NCBI GenBank assembly: GCA_946479615.1
Contig: CAMLGR010000168.1
Span: forward strand, 1 to 9,476
Length of the DNA: 9,476 bases
Source of the DNA: an uncultured Bacteroidota bacterium
GTDB taxonomy: Bacteria > Bacteroidota > Bacteroidia > Chitinophagales > Chitinophagaceae
Reading direction: 5' to 3'
Part shown: one piece after another, positions 1,852 through 9,476 of the stretch
Numbering within the stretch: position 1 is the stretch's first letter
Layout: the number at the start of each line of letters is the position of its first letter
Notes under the pieces: generated by a model
The model's database searches: none
What the model was told of the DNA's origin: nothing
The model's input: only the letters and a program-made list of their open reading frames with translations
Translations under genes and position numbers: made by a program

Positions 1852-2034
1852 AATAAGAAATGAAAAATAAGGGATAAGGAATGAGGAAGTAAATGTAAAA
1901 TGTAGAACCGCAAAATGTAAAATGTAAAAGGGGTGACCGATGGCCGGACACTCCTTTTACATTCTACATTCTACATTTTACATTTTGCGGTTCTACATTT
2001 ACTTCCTTATTCCTTATTCTTCATTTCTTATTAC
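1852..2034. repeat. Long imperfect palindrome, TACATT-unit family
   Basis: The left arm (about 1852-1930) and right arm (about 1954-2034) are inverted copies of each other with small indels. The arms consist of degenerate 7-nt units: TTACATT and CTACATT on the right, AATGTAA and AATGTAG on the left, with an embedded AACCGCAAAATG/CATTTTGCGGTT pair and an outer part built of TTATTCC-like units. The arms differ mainly by gain or loss of whole units. The central loop contains ACCGATGGCCGGA. The element fills the gap between the DUF1573 terminator and the DinB-family gene, and its right arm reaches to within about 23 nt of that gene's start. No transposase or target duplication is visible. Confidence 0.85.
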
Positions 2035-2056
2035 CTTGTATCTCCAACTCTTTTCC

Positions 2057-2521
2057 ATGAAAGAACAACTCCTCGAAACCTGGCGTATCAATCAGCGGAT
2101 GAATCTGCTGGTGATCAACAACACAACAGATGCCGGTATGCAAAAAACGCTTAGTGCCCGTGGTGGCCGTACCGTTTTCCAGCAATGGGTGCATATTCAT
2201 AATGTAAGAATGCAATGGCTGGAGATCACGGCGAAAGATATTTTTGCCCGGTATAAGATCCTGGATAAGGAGATGAAAGATGATAAAAAATCATTATTAA
2301 AGAATCTCGGCGATTCTTTTGCAGGAATTGAAGAATTGCTGGGAAAAAGTTGGGATAATGAAGGAAAGGTAAAAGGATTTAAGAAAGGTGTCCTGCCTTT
2401 TCTCGGTTATTTTATCTCTCATGAATCGCATCACCGCGGAAATATATTACTGACGCTGAAACAATCCGGCGAAAAGCTCCCCGATATACTCAAATGGGGA
2501 TTGTGGGAATGGGGAAAATAA
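2057..2521 (+). CDS. DinB-family (putative metal-dependent four-helix) protein
   Basis: A 154-residue cytoplasmic protein of the DinB superfamily, four-helix-bundle proteins that usually bind a divalent metal through three histidines; some members are thiol-dependent transferases, others have no known activity. The likely metal ligands are H46 or H48 in WVHIHNVRMQWLE and H122 and H126 in SHESHHRGNILLTL. The C-terminal LPDILKWGLWEW is also typical. The ATG at 2057 is chosen although the frame is open back to 1940: the upstream 39 codons lie in the intergenic palindrome and would encode a meaningless Tyr/Phe/Leu-rich stretch, whereas family homology begins at MKEQLLETWRINQR. No clear TAnnTTTG box is seen; TACCTTG at 2032-2038 is a degenerate candidate. 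The specific reaction is unknown. Confidence 0.85.
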   Translation: MKEQLLETWRINQRMNLLVINNTTDAGMQKTLSARGGRTVFQQWVHIHNVRMQWLEITAKDIFARYKILDKEMKDDKKSLLKNLGDSFAGIEELLGKSWDNEGKVKGFKKGVLPFLGYFISHESHHRGNILLTLKQSGEKLPDILKWGLWEWGK

Positions 2522-2722
2522 GTTGCTTTCATTTCCACGCGCGGCTGATCATAATCCCTTTTTTTCTACACTGTCACAATTCTGTCCTGGTGCGGGTTTC
2601 AGCCCGGTTATAAGTTTTCCACAAATTTTCTGCGTGAGGTAAGTGTTACTACTGGTAACGAAGCATAACGTAACTATTTCCGGCATGAATTTTACATAAT
2701 TATTATAATAAATGCTGCCATT

Positions 2723-3022
2723 ATGAATACTGTAGCCAGTAAGCTGGAGAATTTGTTGGCCCTATCGAATGATGTGGCAGATAAAGCATTCTCCTTTGAC
2801 ACGAACTTGAATAAAGACACTCCATCGATCAATAATTATTTTAAATCGATGAAAGAGATCGAAGCTGAATTTGTGGCCAGTATGAGCGCTGCAAAAAATA
2901 CGCTGATGAATATGATCAGCGATATAGGTCACTTCGGTCATAACCTGATTCACTTGGACGGTGATATAAACTTTCCAGACCCCGACAACATCCACGAAGG
3001 GTATATGGAAGAAAACTATTAA
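2723..3022 (+). CDS. Small hypothetical protein, acidic C-terminus
   Basis: A 99-residue frame starting at ATG 2723 in an AT-rich context. I do not recognise the family. There is no signal peptide or membrane segment. Residues 1-25 and 40-68 look helical and amphipathic. The last 20 residues are acidic (LDGDINFPDPDNIHEGYMEE) and contain a His cluster at positions 70, 73, 77 and 91. It is supported as a real gene by a balanced amino-acid composition, by filling the gap between two unrelated genes, and by a strong intrinsic terminator 35 nt after its stop. A second frame on the opposite strand (2762-2995) lacks such support. No good TAnnTTTG promoter is visible upstream, so its expression is uncertain. 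Confidence 0.6.
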   Translation: MNTVASKLENLLALSNDVADKAFSFDTNLNKDTPSINNYFKSMKEIEAEFVASMSAAKNTLMNMISDIGHFGHNLIHLDGDINFPDPDNIHEGYMEENY

Positions 3023-3057
3023 ATCTCTTTACCGTTAAAACTGTGGAGACTGATAGT

Positions 3058-3083
3058 GGGCAGATGCAAATCTGCCCTTTTTT
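3058..3083 (+). terminator. Intrinsic terminator after the small hypothetical gene
   Basis: A perfect 8-bp stem with a GCAA tetraloop, GGGCAGATGCAAATCTGCCC at 3058-3077, is followed by six T residues. This is a textbook rho-independent terminator and supports the upstream small gene being transcribed. Confidence 0.92.
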
Positions 3084-3085
3084 CG

Positions 3086-3169
3086 TCTGAGACCTATGTG
3101 TCTATGTGGTAAAAAGCTGACTGGCGTAGCTTACCACATAGAGACATAGGAATACACACATAGGTCTGA
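3086..3169. repeat. Palindrome copy A, CCTATGTG-unit family
   Basis: The left arm (about 3086-3112) and right arm (about 3131-3169) are inverted copies built of CCTATGTG-type units (ACCTATGTGTCTATGTGGTAA on top, TTACCACATAG and ACACATAGGTCTG below). The right arm has an extra unit of about 12 nt. The loop AAGCTGACTGGCGTAGCTT contains the core GCTGACTGGCGTA shared with copies B and C, and here adds an AAGCT/AGCTT pair to the stem. A T6 run follows at 3177-3182, so it might also terminate transcription. It lies directly after the terminator of the small gene and in front of the aminotransferase promoter. Confidence 0.85.
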
Positions 3170-3179
3170 AATTCTGTTT

Positions 3180-3211
3180 TTTCCCTGCTATTTTCCTCTT
3201 GCTTACCTTTG
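3180..3211 (+). promoter_or_regulatory. Promoter of the aminotransferase gene (Bacteroidota type)
   Basis: TTTC (3180-3183), 20 nt and TACCTTTG (3204-3211) match TTTG-N19/20-TAnnTTTG with one mismatch in the -33 box. The -7 box ends 4 nt before the ATG at 3216, predicting a leaderless or nearly leaderless mRNA. The -33 box overlaps the T-run that follows palindrome A. Confidence 0.65.
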
Positions 3212-3215
3212 CCGC

Positions 3216-4457
3216 ATGTTAAGTATTTCCCAGCGCGGGCAGCAAATGCCAGCCTCCCCCATCCGGAAACTGGTTCCTTTTGCAGAAGCCGCCAAGAAAA
3301 AAGGAATAACAGTGTACCATCTCAATATCGGCCAGCCTGATATTGAAACACCGCCTGCCATTATGGATGCAGTGAAGCATACGGATATTAAAGTATTGGA
3401 ATACAGTCACAGTGCCGGCAATGAAAGTTACCGCCGCAAACTGGTCACTTATTATAAAAAAGTCGGCATCGATGTCACGCATGAACAAATCATGATCACT
3501 ACCGGTGGTTCGGAAGCGATCATGTTTGGATTCTTTACCTGTCTCAACCCTGGCGATGAAGTGATCATCCCGGAACCTTTTTATGCAAACTATAATGGCT
3601 TTGCCTGTGCAGCAGGTGTAAAAGTGGTTCCTATTCCTTCGAGTATCGAAACAGGATTTGCTTTGCCCCCGATCGAAGATTTTGAAAAGGTAATTACATC
3701 GAAAACAAAAGCGATCATTGTTTGCAGTCCCAATAATCCAACCGGGTATTTATACAGTCTGGCCGAGATGGAAGCACTGAAAGATATCTGCATCCGTCAT
3801 CACCTGTATTTGTTCAGCGATGAAGCTTACCGTGAATTTTGTTATACCGAAGATGGCAGCCAGTATGTAAGTGCCATGCATTTGAAGGGATTGGAACAGC
3901 ATGTGGTGTTAATGGATACGATCAGTAAACGGTATAGCGCCTGTGGTGCAAGGATCGGCGCTTTGGTAACAAAGAATAAAACCGTGTATGATGCCGCGAT
4001 GAAATTTGCACAGGCAAGGTTAAGTCCGCCCGGACTGGCGCAGATCATGGGAGAAGCAGCGGTTGATTTACCTGATAATTATTTCGATGAGCCTAAGGCC
4101 GAATATTTAGCACGAAGGAATGCGTTGGTGAGCCGGTTGAATGCCATGCCTGGTGTGTATTGCCCGAATCCCGGTGGCGCTTTTTATGCAATTGCCCGTT
4201 TACCGATCGATGATTCCGATAAGTTTTGTCAATGGTTACTGGAAATCTTTTCGCATAATAATCAAACCCTGATGCTCGCCCCTGCTACCGGTTTTTATGG
4301 CACACCGGGATTGGGAAAAAATGAAGTGCGTCTTGCCTATGTATTAAATGTCAATGCGATCAATGCAGCAATGGATTGTTTGGAAAAAGCGCTGGAACAA
4401 TACCCGGGAAAGACGGAGGTGAGAACGGCGGAGAGTGTATTGGGCTTTAAGTGTTAG
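3216..4457 (+). CDS. PLP-dependent class I/II aminotransferase
   Basis: A 413-residue cytoplasmic enzyme of fold-type I, aspartate aminotransferase superfamily (class I/II), moving an amino group between an amino acid and a 2-oxoacid. Landmarks in order: NIGQPDIETP (37-46), the PLP-phosphate loop TTGGSEAI (95-102), PEPFYANY (119-126), SPNNPTG with N174 (171-177), SDEAYREF with D202 and Y205 (201-208), the Schiff-base lysine K238 in TISKRYSACGARIG with R246, and the carboxylate-binding R372 in EVRLAYV. All key residues are present and the length is normal. The amino donor cannot be named from sequence; Asp/aromatic or a related substrate is plausible. The start is fixed by the promoter 4 nt upstream. 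The last codons (FKC and stop) lie inside a sequence repeated inverted at 5503-5580, so the C-terminal tail after about residue 400 may have been altered by the repeat. Confidence 0.92.
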   Translation: MLSISQRGQQMPASPIRKLVPFAEAAKKKGITVYHLNIGQPDIETPPAIMDAVKHTDIKVLEYSHSAGNESYRRKLVTYYKKVGIDVTHEQIMITTGGSEAIMFGFFTCLNPGDEVIIPEPFYANYNGFACAAGVKVVPIPSSIETGFALPPIEDFEKVITSKTKAIIVCSPNNPTGYLYSLAEMEALKDICIRHHLYLFSDEAYREFCYTEDGSQYVSAMHLKGLEQHVVLMDTISKRYSACGARIGALVTKNKTVYDAAMKFAQARLSPPGLAQIMGEAAVDLPDNYFDEPKAEYLARRNALVSRLNAMPGVYCPNPGGAFYAIARLPIDDSDKFCQWLLEIFSHNNQTLMLAPATGFYGTPGLGKNEVRLAYVLNVNAINAAMDCLEKALEQYPGKTEVRTAESVLGFKC

Positions 4458-4526
4458 GTGAGAGAACTACTGGTTTTATTTTCCTTTCCTCTATGTGAAA
4501 CCTATGTTCCTATGTGCCTATGTGGT
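4446..4526 (+). repeat. Left copy of an 80-nt inverted repeat (pairs with 5503-5580)
   Basis: This stretch begins in the last codons of the aminotransferase (TTTAAGTGTTAG), continues through GTGAGAGAACTACTGGTTTT and ATTTTCCTTTCCT, and enters the left arm of palindrome B. Its reverse complement occurs at 5503-5580 with only one substitution (G/A at the position after GTGTTA) and one 2-nt indel. It is therefore a recent duplication or a gene-converted pair. The two copies bracket the acetyltransferase gene and tRNA-Met. Confidence 0.92.
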
Positions 4527-4580
4527 AAAAAGCTGACTGGCGTAATCTCACCACATAGGAACATAGGTTTCACATAGAGG
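4489..4580. repeat. Palindrome copy B, CCTATGTG-unit family
   Basis: The right arm (4550-4580) is a perfect inverted copy of the left arm (4489-4526), except that the left arm has one extra CCTATGTG unit. The units are CCTCTATGTGAAA, CCTATGTT, CCTATGTG and CCTATGTGGT. The loop is AAAAAGCTGACTGGCGTAAT followed by CTC, carrying the core shared with A and C. It starts 32 nt after the aminotransferase stop codon. As DNA it could extrude a cruciform with an arm of about 30 bp; as RNA it would be a very stable hairpin without a T-tract. Confidence 0.92.
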
Positions 4581-4593
4581 GATTGATACTTTG

Positions 4594-4615
4594 ATCCGGT
4601 AGCTACCGGATTTTT
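4594..4615 (+). terminator. Intrinsic terminator overlapping the 3' end of the acetyltransferase gene
   Basis: The perfect palindrome ATCCGGTAGCTACCGGAT (4594-4611) forms a 7-bp stem with an AGCT loop and runs into five T residues (4611-4615) on the plus strand, so it should stop transcripts from the aminotransferase side. On the minus strand the same bases encode the final Ile-Arg-stop of the acetyltransferase and lack a T-tract after the stem. Confidence 0.8.
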
Positions 4616-5190
4616 AATTCTATATCGCTCAAAAATTTCTCAAGGAATTCTTTATCGAGGTTTGAGAAAAGTATTGGCGGCACAGGATCATCTTTATATT
4701 CATGTAAAGTCAGTTGCCACCAACCTACATTTTTCCATTTGCCCAGTTTATAGCCAACACTTTTATAGGTAGCGAAATATTCAAAGCCCATTTTTTCATG
4801 CAGGGCAACACTGCGATCGTTAGGAAGATTGATCACTGCGTATACATTATAAAATCCCTGTCTTTTTAATATTCCGAACAAAGCGCTGTACAATGCCTGG
4901 GCAATTCCTCTTTTCAGGAAGTCGTCATGAATATACACTGAACATTCCACGCCCCATTGATAGGCAGTGCGTTCGCGGTAGCGGCTGGCATAGGCATAGC
5001 CGGCAATCATACCCTCTGTTTCACAGACCAGCCAGGGCCAGTTTTGCAGGTAGGTTTCGATCCGTTGGGCAAAGGCGTCGATAGCGGGCATTTCGGTTTC
5101 AAAAGTGATGGAAGTATCCCTGATATAAGGACCATAAATATCCAGTATACTTTTGGCATCGGCAGCAGTGGCTAAGCGGATCATACTCAT
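4603..5190 (-). CDS. GNAT acetyltransferase, phosphinothricin/methionine sulfoximine type
   Basis: A 195-residue cytoplasmic GNAT-fold enzyme of the COG1247 type, which transfers acetyl from acetyl-CoA to the alpha-amino group of phosphinothricin, methionine sulfoximine or similar amino acids. Features: IRLATAADAKSILDIYGPYI (4-23), SITFETEMP (27-35), AGYAYASRYRERTAYQW (63-79), the VECSVYI strand (81-87) with E82, the acetyl-CoA loop KRGIAQALY (93-101) with R94, G95 and A97, and NLPNDRSVALHEKMGF (121-136), the family signature. The C-terminal 25 residues (from about 170) extend slightly past the usual domain. An ATG at 5184 (M3) is an alternative start. A TAATTTCG box at 5211-5204, one mismatch from TAnnTTTG, lies upstream. 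It is a single-gene unit between palindromes B and C. The natural substrate is unknown; detoxification of an amino-acid analogue is inferred. Confidence 0.9.
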   Translation of the reverse strand: MSMIRLATAADAKSILDIYGPYIRDTSITFETEMPAIDAFAQRIETYLQNWPWLVCETEGMIAGYAYASRYRERTAYQWGVECSVYIHDDFLKRGIAQALYSALFGILKRQGFYNVYAVINLPNDRSVALHEKMGFEYFATYKSVGYKLGKWKNVGWWQLTLHEYKDDPVPPILFSNLDKEFLEKFLSDIELKIR

Positions 5191-5204
5191 GCTGTTAAAA
5201 CAGC
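5191..5204. promoter_or_regulatory. Small palindrome directly upstream of the acetyltransferase start
   Basis: GCTGTTAAAACAGC is a 6-bp inverted repeat with a 2-nt centre that abuts the ATG at 5190 and touches the TAATTTCG promoter candidate. It could be a repressor operator or a leader hairpin, but palindromes this short also occur by chance. Confidence 0.25.
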
Positions 5205-5244
5205 GAAATTAGGAAAGAGCGAAGAGAGAAAAGGTAAAAAATGA

Positions 5245-5276
5245 TTTCCCTTTTCAGGCAGGATTCTCTATTTTTG
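5245..5276 (+). promoter_or_regulatory. Promoter of tRNA-Met (Bacteroidota type)
   Basis: TTTC (5245-5248), 20 nt and TATTTTTG (5269-5276) give the same arrangement as in front of the aminotransferase. The mature tRNA begins 10 nt after the -7 box, leaving a short 5' leader for RNase P. Confidence 0.7.
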
Positions 5277-5286
5277 CCGCCCATTC

Positions 5287-5360
5287 GCCGGGGTAGCTCA
5301 GCTGGTTAGAGCATCGGATTCATAACCCGAAGGTCGGCAGTTCAAGTCTGCTCTCCGGTA
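5287..5360 (+). tRNA. tRNA-Met (CAT), elongator type
   Basis: The cloverleaf folds fully. The acceptor stem is 5287-5293 with 5353-5359 (7 bp, two G-T pairs), the D arm GCTC/GAGC is at 5296-5312, the anticodon arm is 5314-5330 with loop TTCATAA and anticodon CAT at 5321-5323, and the T arm GGCAG-TTCAAGT-CTGCT is at 5336-5352. The discriminator is A5360. CCA is not encoded (CAG follows), so it must be added after transcription. The anticodon stem has an A-C mismatch next to the loop. It lacks the three G-C pairs and the unpaired first acceptor position of initiator tRNA, so it is read as elongator Met. A lysidine-modified tRNA-Ile(CAT) is the main alternative. Confidence 0.93.
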
Positions 5361-5370
5361 CAGGTAAGTT

Positions 5371-5425
5371 AAAGGTGTTAGGTTTTAAGTGTTAGATTTT
5401 GACGCACTTAAAATCTAACACTTTT
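5371..5425. repeat. Palindrome after tRNA-Met, GGTGTTA-unit family
   Basis: The left arm (5371-5391, AAAGGTGTTAGGTTTTAAGT and one more G) and right arm (5405-5425, CACTTAAAATCTAACACTTT and one more T) pair at 19 of 21 positions around a 13-nt loop. It starts 10 nt after the tRNA and ends in CTTTT, so it probably serves as the tRNA terminator. The arm is related to the start of the palindrome at 7105-7239. Confidence 0.85.
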
Positions 5426-5440
5426 CCATTTATAATACCC

Positions 5441-5539
5441 CCTATGTGAAACCTATATGCCCTATGTGCCTATGTGGTAAAAAAGCTGACTGGCGTAATC
5501 TCACCACATAGGCACATAGGAACATAGGTTTCACATAGG
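5441..5539. repeat. Palindrome copy C, CCTATGTG-unit family
   Basis: The left arm (5441-5478) and right arm (5503-5539) are inverted copies that differ only around the second unit (ATATGCCC versus ATGTTCC). The loop is AAAAAAGCTGACTGGCGTAA followed by TCTC, identical to the loop of copy B apart from one extra A and in the same plus-strand orientation. The right side continues into the inverted 80-nt repeat that ends at the stop codon of the DUF72 gene. Confidence 0.92.
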
Positions 5540-5580
5540 AAAGGAAAATAAAACCAGTAGTTCTCTCACTTAACACTTAA
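5503..5580 (-). repeat. Right copy of the 80-nt inverted repeat (pairs with 4446-4526)
   Basis: Read on the minus strand from 5580 this is TTAAGTGTTAAGTGAGAGAA, then CTACTGGTTTTATTTTCCTT, then the CCTATGTG units. It is the near-identical partner of 4446-4526. It begins immediately downstream of the DUF72 stop codon (5584-5586), just as the left copy begins at the aminotransferase stop codon. Both copies thus occupy the same position relative to the gene they follow. Confidence 0.92.
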
Positions 5581-5583
5581 ACC

Positions 5584-6306
5584 CTAACCCCCAACCACCG
5601 CCCTCATATAATCCGCATTATGAATCGCTGCCATGCTGGCTGTATTGTTGAAGTAGATATAAGCCTTTTTTACCTTTTTATTTTCGTTGATAACAGCGGC
5701 TGTCGCTTCCAGTTGTCCGGTTGCGTATTCAGAGTGATACAATTCCGGCACCCCATGAAACCGGTAATAAACAACAGGTGTGTTGATGATCACATCTTCC
5801 GGCAGCCGGGGATAACTGATTCCACAAAAACTGATGCTGTTTTTGGCGAGCTCCTTCATGACATTCTCGCGCCACCAGCTACCATGACGAAATTCGATCA
5901 CATTTTCAAAAGAAGGATCCAGGTTGTTAATAATGTTCTGCAGGGTATCCATATTATACGCGATCTGGGGAGGTAATTGAAAAAGTACAGCCCCCAATTT
6001 ATCTTTCAATCCTTCGCGGATGGTGGTATAAAAATCTTTGATCAGATCCGCAGCATCCCTGAATTTTTTATAATGAGTGATCGCACGTGGTGCTTTCACT
6101 GAAAAAACAAAATCAGCCGGACTGGTATTGTACCAGTTTTCGAGAAAAGATAACTGCGGGAATTTGTAGAAGGTAACATTCAGTTCCAGCGTACTGTAAC
6201 GGGCGCTGTAAAACTCAAACCACCTGGCCGGTTGCATACCTGCCGGGTAAAATTTGTCTTTCCATTCTTTATAATGAAATCCTGAACATCCTATCTGCCA
6301 GTCCAT
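5584..6306 (-). CDS. DUF72 (YecE-type) protein
   Basis: A 240-residue cytoplasmic protein of the DUF72 family, predicted TIM-barrel-like, with no established reaction. All family blocks are present in order: IGCSGFHYKEW (5-15), ELNVTFYKFP (41-50), VKAPRAITHYK (70-80), LGAVLFQLPPQ (104-114), EFRHGSWW (138-145), YYRFHGVPELY (180-190) and YIYFNNTASMAAIHNA (216-231). The length matches the family and the start at 6306 leads straight into the first conserved strand. It is divergent from the Fpg/Nei glycosylase gene with 69 nt between them. Members have been suggested to act in DNA repair or nucleic-acid metabolism, and the neighbour is compatible with that but does not prove it. Its stop codon abuts the right copy of the 80-nt inverted repeat. 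Confidence 0.93.
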   Translation of the reverse strand: MDWQIGCSGFHYKEWKDKFYPAGMQPARWFEFYSARYSTLELNVTFYKFPQLSFLENWYNTSPADFVFSVKAPRAITHYKKFRDAADLIKDFYTTIREGLKDKLGAVLFQLPPQIAYNMDTLQNIINNLDPSFENVIEFRHGSWWRENVMKELAKNSISFCGISYPRLPEDVIINTPVVYYRFHGVPELYHSEYATGQLEATAAVINENKKVKKAYIYFNNTASMAAIHNADYMRAVVGG

Positions 6307-6375
6307 AGTTCTTTTCTACTATGTATACAAAACTGGAACCATCTTTGGATACATTCATTATCAATCAGTAATATC

Positions 6376-7104
6376 ATGCCCGAAGGACCATCCATCGTCA
6401 TACTTAAAGAAGCCTTACAGCCATTCAAAGGGAAAAAAGTAATCGCCTGCACCGGTAATACGAAGGAGGATGTGGGTTGGGTAGCAGGAAAAAAGATCAT
6501 CGATTTTAAATCGTGGGGAAAACATTTCCTTATCTGTTTCAAAGACCGGACAATCCAGATCCATCTCATGCTGTTTGGTTCTTACCGCATCAATGAACGA
6601 AAAGAAACCACTCCGCGCCTGAGTTTTCGCTTTGCCAAAGGAGAAATAAATTTTTATGCCTGCGTGGTAAAAGTACTGGAAGGCAACCTGGATAAAATTT
6701 ATGATTGGGAACGCGATGTAATGAATGACCACTGGAACCCACGCAAAGCAAGAAAGACATTGAAAGCCGAACCTGAAACCATGGCTTGCGATGCATTAAT
6801 GGATCAAACCGTTTTTTCGGGCGTGGGTAATATCATTAAAAACGAGGTCTTGTTCCGTATCTGTGTTCATCCCGAAAGTCAGGTAGGCAACCTGCCTCCT
6901 GATCGCTTAACCGCCCTGATCAAAGAAGCGCATATCTACAGTTTTCAATTTCTTGCCTGGAAAAAAGAATTTACCCTTAAAAAACACTGGCTGGCCTATG
7001 CAAAGAAGATCTGCCCGCGTTGTCATATCCCGCTGATCAAAAAAGAAACAGGCCAAAGAAAAAGAAGAAGCTTTTTTTGTACTAATTGCCAGGAGTTGTA
7101 TTAA
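6376..7104 (+). CDS. Fpg/Nei-family DNA glycosylase/AP lyase
   Basis: A 242-residue base-excision-repair enzyme that removes oxidised bases and nicks the abasic site in the cytoplasm. The N-terminus MPEGPSIVIL gives the catalytic P2 (Schiff base) and E3. K49 in SWGKHFLICF is the usual strand-hairpin lysine. The helix-two-turn-helix motif is at about 140-160 (QTVFSGVGNIIKNEVLF, with the invariant G-V-G-N). The C-terminal zinc finger uses C213/C216 (CPRC) and C235/C238 (CTNC), with RRSFFC supplying the conserved DNA-contact arginine. It is somewhat shorter than typical Fpg (about 270), and MPEGPS leans toward endonuclease VIII-like members, so no symbol is given. It has its own 3' hairpin at 7105-7239. 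Its pairing with the divergent DUF72 gene may reflect shared regulation, which is inference. Confidence 0.93.
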   Translation: MPEGPSIVILKEALQPFKGKKVIACTGNTKEDVGWVAGKKIIDFKSWGKHFLICFKDRTIQIHLMLFGSYRINERKETTPRLSFRFAKGEINFYACVVKVLEGNLDKIYDWERDVMNDHWNPRKARKTLKAEPETMACDALMDQTVFSGVGNIIKNEVLFRICVHPESQVGNLPPDRLTALIKEAHIYSFQFLAWKKEFTLKKHWLAYAKKICPRCHIPLIKKETGQRKRRSFFCTNCQELY

Positions 7105-7247
7105 GAGGTGTTGGGTGTTAGGTGTTAGGTTTTAAATGTAGATGGTAAATTGCCAGATGGTAAGTGTCATATTAATTATCAGGATCTTTCACATCTAAAA
7201 CTTAACACCTAACATTCAGAACCTAACACCTAACACCTCCTTTTTTT
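7105..7247 (+). terminator. Palindrome, GGTGTTA-unit family, acting as terminator of the glycosylase gene
   Basis: The left arm begins at the base after the glycosylase stop codon (7105 to about 7142) and pairs with the right arm (7190-7239). The arms are built of GGTGTTA and AACACCT units, with extra units on the right. GAGGTGTT at the base pairs perfectly with AACACCTC, followed by T7 (7241-7247), the hallmark of an intrinsic terminator. The AT-rich loop contains AGATGGTAA twice. It belongs to the same family as the palindrome after tRNA-Met (shared GGTGTTAGGTTTTAA). The chitinase start is only 27 nt beyond the T-tract. Confidence 0.85.
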
Positions 7248-7274
7248 ATATCTTGGGGATCAAACAGGTTTTCA

Positions 7275-8402
7275 ATGACAAAAAGAAATCGTTTTCCACG
7301 GCTTACCCTTTTCCCTGTTTTATTGCTGTTTATCCCGTTCCTGACGGCCAAACCCGGGCCCGCGGACAATCCGGTCGTCATCGGTTATGTGGCGGGTTAT
7401 AGCGGGCTGATCAATACCGAACTGCTCGATGCTTCTAAACTCACTCATATCAATTACGCATTTGTGGATATAAAAGATAACCGGGCCTGGTTGCATAATG
7501 AAGTCACCGATACCGTTAATTTCCGCAAACTGAATGAATTGAAATCGGCCAATCCTTCGCTGAAGATCCTGATATCGATCGGTGGCTGGTCATGGAGCAA
7601 GAATTTCTCCGATGCAGTATTAAGTGATACTTCCAGGCAGGCATTTGCCGCCAGTTCGGTTGCCATTATTGCTCAATATGGATTGGATGGCGTGGATATC
7701 GATTGGGAATATCCCGGTATGCGCGGCGACGGAAATATGTTTCGCCCCGAAGATCAATCCAATTATACATTGATGTTTCGCGCGATCCGCGAAGAGCTAA
7801 ATAAACTGCAGCAACAAACCGGTCGTTCTTATTTATTAACTACGGCTGCAGGCGGCTTCGCCTCTTTTATCCGGCATACGGAAATGGATAAGGCACAACA
7901 ATACCTCGATTATATCAACCTGATGACCTATGATTATAGTGAAGATGTATCGGTGCATCATACCAATTTATATGCAACGGGTAATAACCCGGAAGAAAAT
8001 TCTGCGGATAAAGCGGTAAAGGATTTCATGGCTGCCGGTGTTCCGGCCAGCAAACTGGTAATGGGCATTGCTTTTTATGGGCGGGCTTATATTCTCGAAA
8101 CGGATGATAATAAAGGGCTGAATCAAAAAGTCGTGTCAAGGACATGGGCCGGCGGGTATACTTATATAAAAGATAGTTTGATCGATCAGCAGGGATATAA
8201 AAGTTATTGGGATAAGAAAGCCAAAGCACCTTATCTTTTTAATAAGGAGAAAAAAATAGTACTCTCGTATGATAATGAGAAATCAGTAAAGGAAAAGTGT
8301 GCGTATGTAAAAAAACACAAGATGGGTGGTGTGATGTTCTGGGAATATTCTTCCGATCCCAAAGAATATTTATTGACGACTATAGAGAAGAACCTGTACT
8401 AA
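7275..8402 (+). CDS. Secreted GH18 chitinase-like glycoside hydrolase
   Basis: A 375-residue family 18 glycoside hydrolase expected to cleave beta-1,4-N-acetylglucosamine chains (chitin or related glycans) outside the cytoplasm. A signal peptide covers residues 1 to about 25 (basic start, LFPVLLLFIPFLTA). The TIM barrel shows IGYVAGYSG (36-44), LTHINYAFVDI (56-66), LKILISIGGWSWS (96-108), the catalytic DGVDIDWEYPG with D138, D141, D143 and acid E145, YINLMTYDY (213-221), AFYGRAY (266-272) followed by a chitinase insertion domain of about 60 residues, and MFWEYSSD with W356. All catalytic residues are present. There is no carbohydrate-binding module and no type IX secretion C-terminal domain, so it is probably periplasmic or released by another route. 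A degenerate TATCTTGG box lies at 7250-7257. It stands alone, not in a PUL with SusC/SusD. Confidence 0.93.
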   Translation: MTKRNRFPRLTLFPVLLLFIPFLTAKPGPADNPVVIGYVAGYSGLINTELLDASKLTHINYAFVDIKDNRAWLHNEVTDTVNFRKLNELKSANPSLKILISIGGWSWSKNFSDAVLSDTSRQAFAASSVAIIAQYGLDGVDIDWEYPGMRGDGNMFRPEDQSNYTLMFRAIREELNKLQQQTGRSYLLTTAAGGFASFIRHTEMDKAQQYLDYINLMTYDYSEDVSVHHTNLYATGNNPEENSADKAVKDFMAAGVPASKLVMGIAFYGRAYILETDDNKGLNQKVVSRTWAGGYTYIKDSLIDQQGYKSYWDKKAKAPYLFNKEKKIVLSYDNEKSVKEKCAYVKKHKMGGVMFWEYSSDPKEYLLTTIEKNLY

Positions 8403-8440
8403 AAAAGTAATGAACAGAATTTGAACCTGGCAATTGCCCG

Positions 8441-8544
8441 CTCTGCGGTTCTCTTTCTCTCTGTGGCCCTCTGTGGGCTATTCTTATAACAGCAACATCA
8501 CCTGATGGAAGAATTATTCCACAGAGAGAAAGAGGACTGCGGAG
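8441..8544. repeat. Palindrome between convergent genes, CTCTGTGG-unit family
   Basis: The left arm (8441-8466) and right arm (8519-8544) match at 23 of 26 positions. The three mismatches are transitions that leave G-U pairs in RNA of one strand. The arms use CTCTGCGG, TTCTCTTTCTCT and CTGTGG units, with an additional CCCTCTGTGG unit inside the loop. The element sits between the stop codons of the convergent chitinase and TolC-like genes and ends 3 nt from the latter, so it is well placed as a bidirectional 3'-end hairpin, although neither side has a T-tract. Confidence 0.85.
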
Positions 8545-8547
8545 ATA

Positions 8548-9476
8548 TTACCAGCTTAGTTTGCCCTGGTAATAGTCGAGAATTTTTGTGCGGACAATAT
8601 ATTCATAGCGGGCAATGATCAGGTTATTACTTGCCCTGTCGTAATTGGTTCTGGCTGTAAGGTAATCGATGGATGTTCCCACTCCTTCATTAAACCGGAT
8701 CTCTGCAGCCCGGAAGGATTGCTGGTAAGAATTGACCTGGTCAAGCAGGGTTTTATAGCGATCGTAAACCGTCGCCATATCAAGATAACTTTTTTCAACA
8801 GATTGCTGCAATCCTGTTTTCGCCGATTGCTCCAGCAGGGAATAATTCTTCGCATCGATCTTTGCCAGTTTTACCTGGTTGCGTGTACGCAGGGCATTAA
8901 ACAAAGGCACCCGCAGGTTGATACTGATATAGGTAGATATATTATTATTCAACTGTTTTGTATACGCGATCTTATCAAAACGGTAATTGCTTTGCTGGTG
9001 GATGACCTGCGCAGGTGTACCGCCGACCACTACATAATCATTGGTAGGCACATCGGTGGTATTGATAAAAATATTCTGGGAAGCTGCGCTGGAATAATTA
9101 CTGCTGGCGTTTCCGTTGAAGGTCAGTGTGGGGAATAATCGTCCCTGGTAGATCTTTACGGTCTTCTCCGCGCTTTTTGTTTGCAGTTCCGCATACCTGA
9201 TCATTGCAAAATCGCTTAATGCCTTATTATAAATATCGGTAGGCATATCGGGATAAGCCGATGCGATCGCATCTGCATTGAAGTTTTCCAGCTTGATATC
9301 CTTATCATATTTGATATTCATCAGCCTGCAGAGATCGATCTTAGCAGTTTCCAATGCATTGCGGGTAGCGATCAATGCCATCTGGTCGGAGGCCAGTTGT
9401 CCCTTGAGATCGTAGAGGTCAGACGGTTTGATGGATCCGTTGCTGTTCAGTATTTCCAGGCGCTGCACTTGTTTAC
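8548..9476 (-). CDS. TolC-family outer membrane efflux protein, C-terminal part (runs off right edge)
   Basis: The frame is open from the right edge to a TAA at 8550-8548, giving about 308 residues of a TolC/OEP protein, the outer-membrane duct of RND or ABC efflux and type I secretion systems. The visible part holds the end of the first OEP repeat (long helices such as LYDLKGQLASDQMALIATRN and ETAKIDLCRLMNI), then the second repeat: helix SAEKTVKIYQGRLFPTLTFN, a beta-barrel hairpin region rich in Asn/Tyr/Ser, ISINLRVPLFNALRTRNQVK, and the closing coiled coil FRAAEIRFNEGVGTSIDYLT ending in LDYYQGKLSW. A GTG at 9468-9466 is inside the coding region and is not the start; the signal peptide and N-terminus lie outside. 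Partner pump genes would be expected upstream, beyond the window. The C-terminus abuts the palindrome at 8441-8544. Confidence 0.9.
   Translation of the reverse strand, partial: KQVQRLEILNSNGSIKPSDLYDLKGQLASDQMALIATRNALETAKIDLCRLMNIKYDKDIKLENFNADAIASAYPDMPTDIYNKALSDFAMIRYAELQTKSAEKTVKIYQGRLFPTLTFNGNASSNYSSAASQNIFINTTDVPTNDYVVVGGTPAQVIHQQSNYRFDKIAYTKQLNNNISTYISINLRVPLFNALRTRNQVKLAKIDAKNYSLLEQSAKTGLQQSVEKSYLDMATVYDRYKTLLDQVNSYQQSFRAAEIRFNEGVGTSIDYLTARTNYDRASNNLIIARYEYIVRTKILDYYQGKLSW

Follow-up and report, generated by a model that had tools for sequence, protein, structure and literature searches.

A stretch of 9,476 nucleotides from an uncultured bacterium of the family Chitinophagaceae (GenBank assembly GCA_946479615.1, contig CAMLGR010000168.1; in the following termed the window) contains seven intergenic palindromes of four families, some of them nested, and these belong to a large class of intergenic hairpins that is real and recurs at many loci of related genomes. 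We consider it probable (about 0.6) that they are heptad-armed, dispersed, REPIN-like hairpin elements of several families, the arms of which are kept paired largely because one arm is copied from the other. The arms of such elements would consist of units of about 7-9 nt that vary slightly and are arrayed in tandem. Within a genome, copies would be dispersed to intergenic sites, in most cases directly behind stop codons, where they would replace intrinsic terminators or stand beside them, and the spreading family would differ by lineage, so that orthologous gaps would carry one family or another, have a plain terminator or be empty. Complementarity would be maintained largely by template switching at the hairpin, units would be gained and lost by slippage, and hairpins inserted into other hairpins would create nested, concentric shells.

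Palindromes of the window and heptad arrays in its relatives

All seven palindromes described in an earlier note on this DNA are present, and a repeat search of the window recovered arms for each (no strand is assigned to any of them). Palindrome A (1852-2034; arms 1852-1881/2003-2032, also 1859-1929/1962-2032) consists, as judged by eye, of an outer AATAAGG-like shell and an inner heptad shell (TTACATT/CTACATT) that includes a mirrored GAACCGC insert. Palindromes B1 (3086-3169; arms 3093-3112/3131-3150, also 3090-3105/3152-3167) and B3 (5441-5539; arms 5441-5461/5519-5539, also 5461-5478/5503-5520) are built of CCTATGTG units, the former directly 3' of the terminator of a 99-aa open reading frame (ORF). 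Palindrome B2 (4488-4580), located between two convergent genes (aminotransferase and GNAT), has 29-nt arms with 100% complementarity (4488-4516/4552-4580); its flank and left arm (approximately 4445-4526, plus strand) align with a reverse-complement copy on the minus strand at approximately 5503-5583. GGTGTTA units make up C1 (5371-5425; arms 5371-5391/5405-5425) and C2 (7105-7239; arms 7105-7123/7221-7239), the latter adjoining the stop codon of a Fapy-glycosylase-like gene and followed by a T run. Palindrome D (8441-8544; arms 8441-8466/8519-8544) carries CTCTGTGG units and lies between a GH18 gene and a convergent ORF (8548-9468).

That the arms are composed of tandem units is borne out for families A, B and C by a period scan and for palindrome D by CTCTGTGG, two tandem copies of which lie innermost in the left arm; the arrays qualify as period-7 tandem arrays, but units in families B and D measure 8-10 nt. 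The description of four unrelated families needs qualification: family B (CTATGTG) resembles family D (CTCTGTG) by eye, and the families are nested, because C-type arms at 5374-5394 and 5571-5591 enclose palindrome B3. A position close behind a stop codon or tRNA was found as described, with C2 beginning right after a stop codon that ends at 7104, B2 and D following at 31 and 39 nt, respectively, and C1 at 10 nt behind tRNA-Met (5287-5361), while A and B1 each stand behind a stop codon and behind a terminator-like hairpin (1809-1843 and 3058-3077, respectively).

Relatives of the window were represented by the best 80 of 527 candidate stretches (1.43 Mb), recruited via the window aminotransferase at no more than 89% identity. 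A strict detector found four of the seven palindromes in the 9.5 kb of the window and flagged 21 places across the loci of the 80 relatives (1.43 Mb), and a first-order Markov control sequence of equal total length (1.44 Mb) yielded none; by these counts, the window is unusually dense in palindromes. With a looser detector, 11 inverted repeats were found in the window vs. none in its control, and controls were not empty in larger samples (50 vs. 104 in genome G013). None of the palindromes exceeded the gathering score of an Rfam family, which was reached only by the tRNA; sub-gathering matches to microRNAs, snoRNAs and leaders were dismissed as an effect of long hairpins.

Arrays were scanned for periods of 4-16 nt. 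Several of the genomes compared are metagenome bins, and genes were called by script as longest ORFs with no curated annotation, such that some gap types will be wrong. A period of 7 nt was found for 55 of 117 arrays in 196 kb of intergenic DNA from the 80 loci, for 20 of 141 arrays in their 1,239 kb of coding DNA and for 8 of 71 in the Markov control. Larger samples gave 107 of 169 and 71 of 118 arrays (two 400-kb samples of genome G032), 29 of 47 (400 kb of G013), 24 of 61 (152 kb of Chitinophaga solisilvae, G034) and 5 of 8 (400 kb of Chitinophaga arvensicola, G035), while genome G004 is poor in arrays (3/5 and 6/14).

In at least eight of the 80 relatives, inspection by eye revealed arrays in the first 260 nt or so after the aminotransferase stop codon, and their units differ (TAGCTGT, CACCTGA with CACATAG, GATGGTG, GTGTTAG, ACAGGTT, CATGGTT, GTTTGGT and AAATGTA); most relatives have none. 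Matches to B-type DNA occur in 9 of 35 genomes (1-10 per genome). Inspection by eye of 30 B-type loci revealed the order CACATAG-CTATGTG, from left to right, in 22 and that of the window in two; of the remainder, one is mixed, three are one-armed and two are without a cluster. Some loci are composite. At L093:1476-1800, CTATGTG and CACATAG arms alternate, as might result from the fusion of two or three B hairpins, and the middles of B hairpins in L085, L100 and L108 contain CTTGTCCC-like or GGGACAAGTT-like words, perhaps from another element inserted at the apex. At L014:11194-11450, a single array grades from CACCTGA heptads into CACATAG units, which suggests that transitions between unit families are possible.

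Expansion in Chitinophaga solisilvae and differently filled orthologous gaps

The AATTACG pattern (GAATTACGAATTACGAATTACG, up to three mismatches) had matches in nine of the 17 genomes searched. C. solisilvae (L074) stands out with 1241 + 1267 matches (2,508), followed by Chitinophaga hostae (G037, L079; 122 + 145) and G032 (81 + 103), while C. arvensicola (L077; 6 + 6) and Chitinophaga dinghuensis (G036, L072; 4 + 3) contain few; matches overlap in register, such that arrays are fewer than matches. A reversed-pattern control yielded zero or one match in each of the four Chitinophaga genomes.

In 552 kb of C. solisilvae, 52 heptad hairpins were found, 32 with AATTACG and 18 with TTATTTG as the left arm, none reversed and two of other types. 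Of 66 AATTACG clusters, all but two are paired in F-R order at distances of 65-210 nt; a wider pair, as a possible autonomous element would have, did not occur between 250 nt and 8 kb in this sample. Of the hairpins, 25 fall in convergent gaps (54 in total), 13 and 11 in unidirectional gaps (110 and 71, respectively) and 3 in divergent gaps (71), and 68 of 74 stop-facing sides lie within 30 nt of the stop codon. By eye, several are concentric, with AATTACG enclosing TTATTTGAG, or with TTATTTG outside, ATTTTGG inside it and a core at the centre, and some TTATTTG hairpins harbour a terminator-like GC core.

The earlier note held that single-copy palindromes, conserved as ordinary terminators and without empty sites in close relatives, would speak against its proposal. 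The relatives present a different picture, and sites empty of a palindrome were found for B1, for B2 and for one C. solisilvae hairpin. The convergent aminotransferase-GNAT gap, which spans 145 nt in the window and contains palindrome B2, measures -9 to 80 nt in all six relatives examined (the two genes adjacent, aminotransferase 72-86% identical) and holds a plain hairpin at most. Locus L025 was left out of this count although a GNAT gene follows there as well; its gap amounts to some hundreds of nucleotides and carries a GATGGTG array in place of the palindrome. This direct GATGGTG-like array (L025:11199-11410) is about 200 nt long and adjoins the aminotransferase stop codon, with no inverted repeat reported. 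The gap that precedes the aminotransferase gene in L016 (84%) retains the terminator (GGGGCAGAGTGAGTTCTGCCCTTTTTT) and is devoid of palindrome B1, bringing the relatives without window palindromes at the orthologous gaps examined to seven.

Among Chitinophaga species, few gaps were comparable, and the following cases are no survey. Three congeners lack the C. solisilvae hairpin of L218:8669-8783, their gaps measuring 28, 38 and 31 nt vs. 155-173 nt. At L218:5833-5997, C. solisilvae has an AATTACG hairpin, C. hostae a hairpin of AAAGC-type units, and C. arvensicola and C. dinghuensis a plain terminator-like hairpin; all four genomes show a hairpin behind the plus-strand gene. The C. solisilvae hairpin at L218:1631-1758 is flanked by AAAATAAT and ATTATTTT, and C. 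dinghuensis has at this place a plain terminator-like hairpin that shares the outer stem. A gap in L074 contains an AATTACG hairpin, the corresponding one in L079 an AGCT-type array plus a hairpin and those in L072 and L077 plain hairpins; differing elements also occupy corresponding gaps in L046/L049 and L058/L060. No gap was shared when C. solisilvae hairpins were compared with a 400-kb stretch of C. arvensicola and with six loci, presumably because these stretches are not syntenic. Insertion at a formerly empty site, as known for miniature inverted-repeat transposable elements, is seen both among the congeners and at the window gaps.

Polarity, probable arm copying and competing explanations

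Arrays of period 7, 8 or 14 frequently have a partner within 400 nt. An inverted partner was present for 61 and a direct one for 30 of the 149 arrays in the first G032 sample; inverted and direct partners numbered 14 and 3 among 40 arrays in G013, and 4 and 0 among 15 in G004. For eleven unit families, one orientation each was fixed from the first 400-kb sample of G032, with F expected at the left edge of a gap and R at the right edge. In that sample, 130 of 149 classified arrays obeyed this rule (13 of 162 unclassified), in all four gene-strand combinations. With unchanged definitions, 77 of 95 arrays did so in an independent 400-kb stretch (11 of 106 unclassified; p 4e-10). For arrays that follow a stop codon by no more than 20 nt, the ratio was 50:0 in-sample and 22:2 out of sample. 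In addition, distant gaps in L155, L158, L166 and L168 of G032 share identical multi-unit stretches of 28-32 nt, one of which occurs three times in L158 at a spacing of 120 nt. Recurring polar families and these identical stretches at distant gaps require dispersal. Some G032 loops contain a terminator-like hairpin. A single transposon carrying its own loop was rejected on the G032 sample, the loops of which are unrelated to each other.

Covariation of the arms was studied in 24 of the 32 AATTACG hairpins of C. solisilvae, eight having been excluded by eye as longer or nested, decayed or equipped with another inner stem. Pairing was found in 97.8% of 1,291 cells. Double changes occurred in 26 of 55 pairs, compared to a shuffle mean of 11.7 with none of 500 shuffles as high, and the signal was lost when the partner was slid. 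The 121 double Watson-Crick changes comprise 62 transversions and 59 transitions. Transversion double changes cannot proceed via a G-U pair. Among mispairs, G-T (17) is not above A-C (21; others 7). As roughly one in two double changes is a transversion and G-T is not in excess over A-C, the data point to copying between the arms at the DNA level, which fits the paired changes better than slow compensation at the RNA level. In one subfamily, the loop was found by eye in both orientations, which is expected from template switching and from insertion either way alike. A hairpin's own arms were each other's best match in 37 of 52 C. solisilvae cases (2 ties), a result favoured by trimming on the element's own alignment. 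Each of the three processes proposed in the earlier note is supported by part of the evidence. In favour of template switching, the arms of C. solisilvae hairpins vary in step, with many double transversions and few wobble intermediates; as the sole origin of the hairpins, inverted copying was retained for C. solisilvae and rejected as unsupported for G032, where arms were trimmed differently.

Several observations weigh against dispersed, arm-copied elements. In G032, own arms were best in only 8 of 43 hairpins, and no whole-element copying is apparent in this genome: 21 loops of at least 30 nt (from 29 elements) are mutually unrelated save for a single 19-nt match. Arrays with no partner within 400 nt are many (58/149 in G032, 23/40 in G013, 11/15 in G004), the polarity rule holds for only 12 of 18 classified arrays in G013 (25/43 unclassified), and family B in the window runs opposite to 22 of the 30 relatives' loci (by eye). 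The aligned copies share ancestry, such that covarying cells are not independent events. Target-site duplications were unreadable in the compared genomes, the flanks of which are too diverged; no transposase was identified there, and no mobilizing enzyme for the heptad hairpins. A genus-level search around G032 reached only G032 itself.

It is possible, if on balance doubtful, that the elements form a RAYT-independent class of the Bacteroidota (RAYT, REP-associated tyrosine transposase; REP, repetitive extragenic palindrome), in which the hairpin would be both target, with insertion on or at the apex of terminator hairpins and other hairpins generating concentric shells, and template for arm copying, the architecture being inherited and the units replaced by lineage.

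Less probable than either of these is an origin as overgrown bidirectional terminators or 3'-end stabilizers, the pairing of which would be kept by selection on RNA and the family likeness of which would be due to convergence or occasional copying. The position behind stop codons, the enrichment in convergent gaps, plain terminators at the same places in sister species and the terminator-like cores of some C. solisilvae hairpins agree with this explanation and with selection for 3'-end structure as the earlier note had envisaged it. Sense-strand wobble pairs are slightly in excess in C. solisilvae (38 vs. 23, one-sided p 0.04); the excess is absent from G032 and G013 (14 vs. 13) and not significant when pooled (52 vs. 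36, p 0.055), in a test of low power that revealed no excess for plain hairpins either (38 vs. 42). Transversions among the double changes speak against RNA selection, as does the persistence of polarity in divergent gaps (21/26 in-sample, 12/15 out of sample). Furthermore, separate terminator-like hairpins stand beside three window palindromes, and pattern matches jump at least 200-fold between congeners.

Plain simple-sequence repeats, i.e., slippage by 7 nt in unconstrained DNA with occasional template switching and no dispersal, appear quite unlikely. Period 7 dominates the intergenic arrays studied here, long direct arrays such as that in L025 exist, and heptamers are reported to be the commonest among long simple repeats in most of the genomes covered by one survey (PMC4679880, citing Mrazek 2007). 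An origin at each locus by itself, with neither polarity nor dispersal shared between loci, is at odds with eleven families of fixed polarity at about 240 places in 800 kb of G032 and with the identical multi-unit stretches at distant gaps.

Least likely of all are true REPINs moved in trans by RAYT (Y1/HUH) transposases, for which REPIN-like anatomy (inverted ends, variable paired spacer, high copy number, extragenic location) and the occurrence of PF01797 (Y1/RAYT) in 21 of 30 genomes searched can be cited and against which stand its absence from searches of all four Chitinophaga genomes, including the two with most AATTACG matches (a diverged RAYT may lie below the reach of the search), the 20 Y1 loci of other genomes, none with a period-7 or -8 array and one (L201) with a period-14 array, and the lack of a conserved GTAG/CGTC end tag (by eye). 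REP-type dispersal, as proposed earlier, is supported by the many loci, the fixed polarity and the empty orthologous sites and weakened by the outcome of the transposase searches. Two of the 20 Y1 loci have GC-rich classical REPs; clusters of such REPs (CGTCCCTTCGGGACG; CGTTCCATCGGAACG) were noted at the Y1 loci L205 and L206.

If dispersed, arm-copied hairpins are the correct explanation, a large share of the intergenic repeats of the family would represent one class of unit-built, sometimes nested hairpins that can rise from about ten to about 2,500 pattern matches between sister species and that would stand in for transcription terminators. C. solisilvae would contain some hundreds of hairpins if 52 per 552 kb are typical of its approximately 8 Mb. 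Together with its congeners, it would offer a system for testing the spread of hairpins without a recognizable RAYT and for addressing an old question on compensatory evolution, i.e., whether paired stem changes arise by DNA template switching or by RNA selection.

Known repeat classes and other features of the window

REPINs are inverted doublets forming hairpins, with conserved ends, a less conserved spacer showing compensatory changes, high copy number and extragenic location (PMC3116915), and REPs are found downstream of genes and between unidirectional and convergent ORFs (PMC3733652). The C. solisilvae elements share with them two inverted conserved ends, a variable hairpin-forming spacer, high-copy extragenic dispersal and a preference for gene ends. 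They differ in that the ends are heptad arrays and the arms are paired almost throughout: in the 24 aligned elements, inspection by eye revealed no unpaired GTAG/CGTC tag, the outer ends being paired AATTACG units and GTAG occurring further in and in some elements only. Further differences are several families per genome, some nested as shells, the presence of some heptad hairpins where sister species have a plain terminator, and PF01797 not being found in the richest genome. Because of the negative results for PF01797 and the Y1 loci and the missing tag, we call the elements REPIN-like and not REPINs.

Yersinia palindromic sequences (YPAL) of about 167 bp (PMC2759123) and similar small mobile intergenic sequences are comparable in being palindromic, intergenic, mobile and of similar size; YPAL constitutes one repeat unit, unlike the tandem arrays of many unit families reported here. 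Intergenic heptamer arrays (TAACTGA and others) occur sporadically, also in Bacteroidetes, with shorter gaps devoid of them in relatives, and polymerase slippage at a 7-nt step has been proposed as their cause (PMC4679880). The intergenic location, sporadic distribution and shorter empty gaps of relatives recur in our data. TAACTGA-type heptamers are, however, described as direct repeats (169 sets plus one indirect), and no mention of inverted pairing, pair polarity or arm covariation was found in the portion of that paper at hand (PMC4679880). Evolution of quasipalindromes by template switching involves arm homogenization, multibase compensatory changes and spacer inversion (PMC8794818; PMC8604942), matched here by the paired changes and the two loop orientations in C. 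solisilvae; that process acts on hairpins in place, whereas those studied here also recur in high copy. Titles and abstract openings of the open-licence literature searched contained no description of heptad-armed hairpins in Chitinophagaceae.

With regard to the genes of the window, nine of ten scanned proteins exceeded the Pfam cut-off (E1 dehydrogenase, two DUF1573, DinB, aminotransferase, GNAT, DUF72, Fapy-glycosylase-like and GH18), while the 99-aa ORF has a Pfam match only below it; tRNA-Met is the single tRNA gene. Terminator-like hairpins on the plus strand are located behind the second DUF1573 gene and beside palindrome A (1809-1843), behind the 99-aa ORF (3058-3077; recognizable also in L016, which lacks palindrome B1) and behind palindrome B2 (4593-4612). 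A terminator scan of the window returned six sites vs. 7.3 in shuffles, i.e., no excess, and among the seven palindromes flagged 5387-5423 alone. The longest ORF of the DinB gene (1940-2521) begins within palindrome A, an alternative start at 2057 lying outside, such that an automatically annotated protein may run into the repeat.

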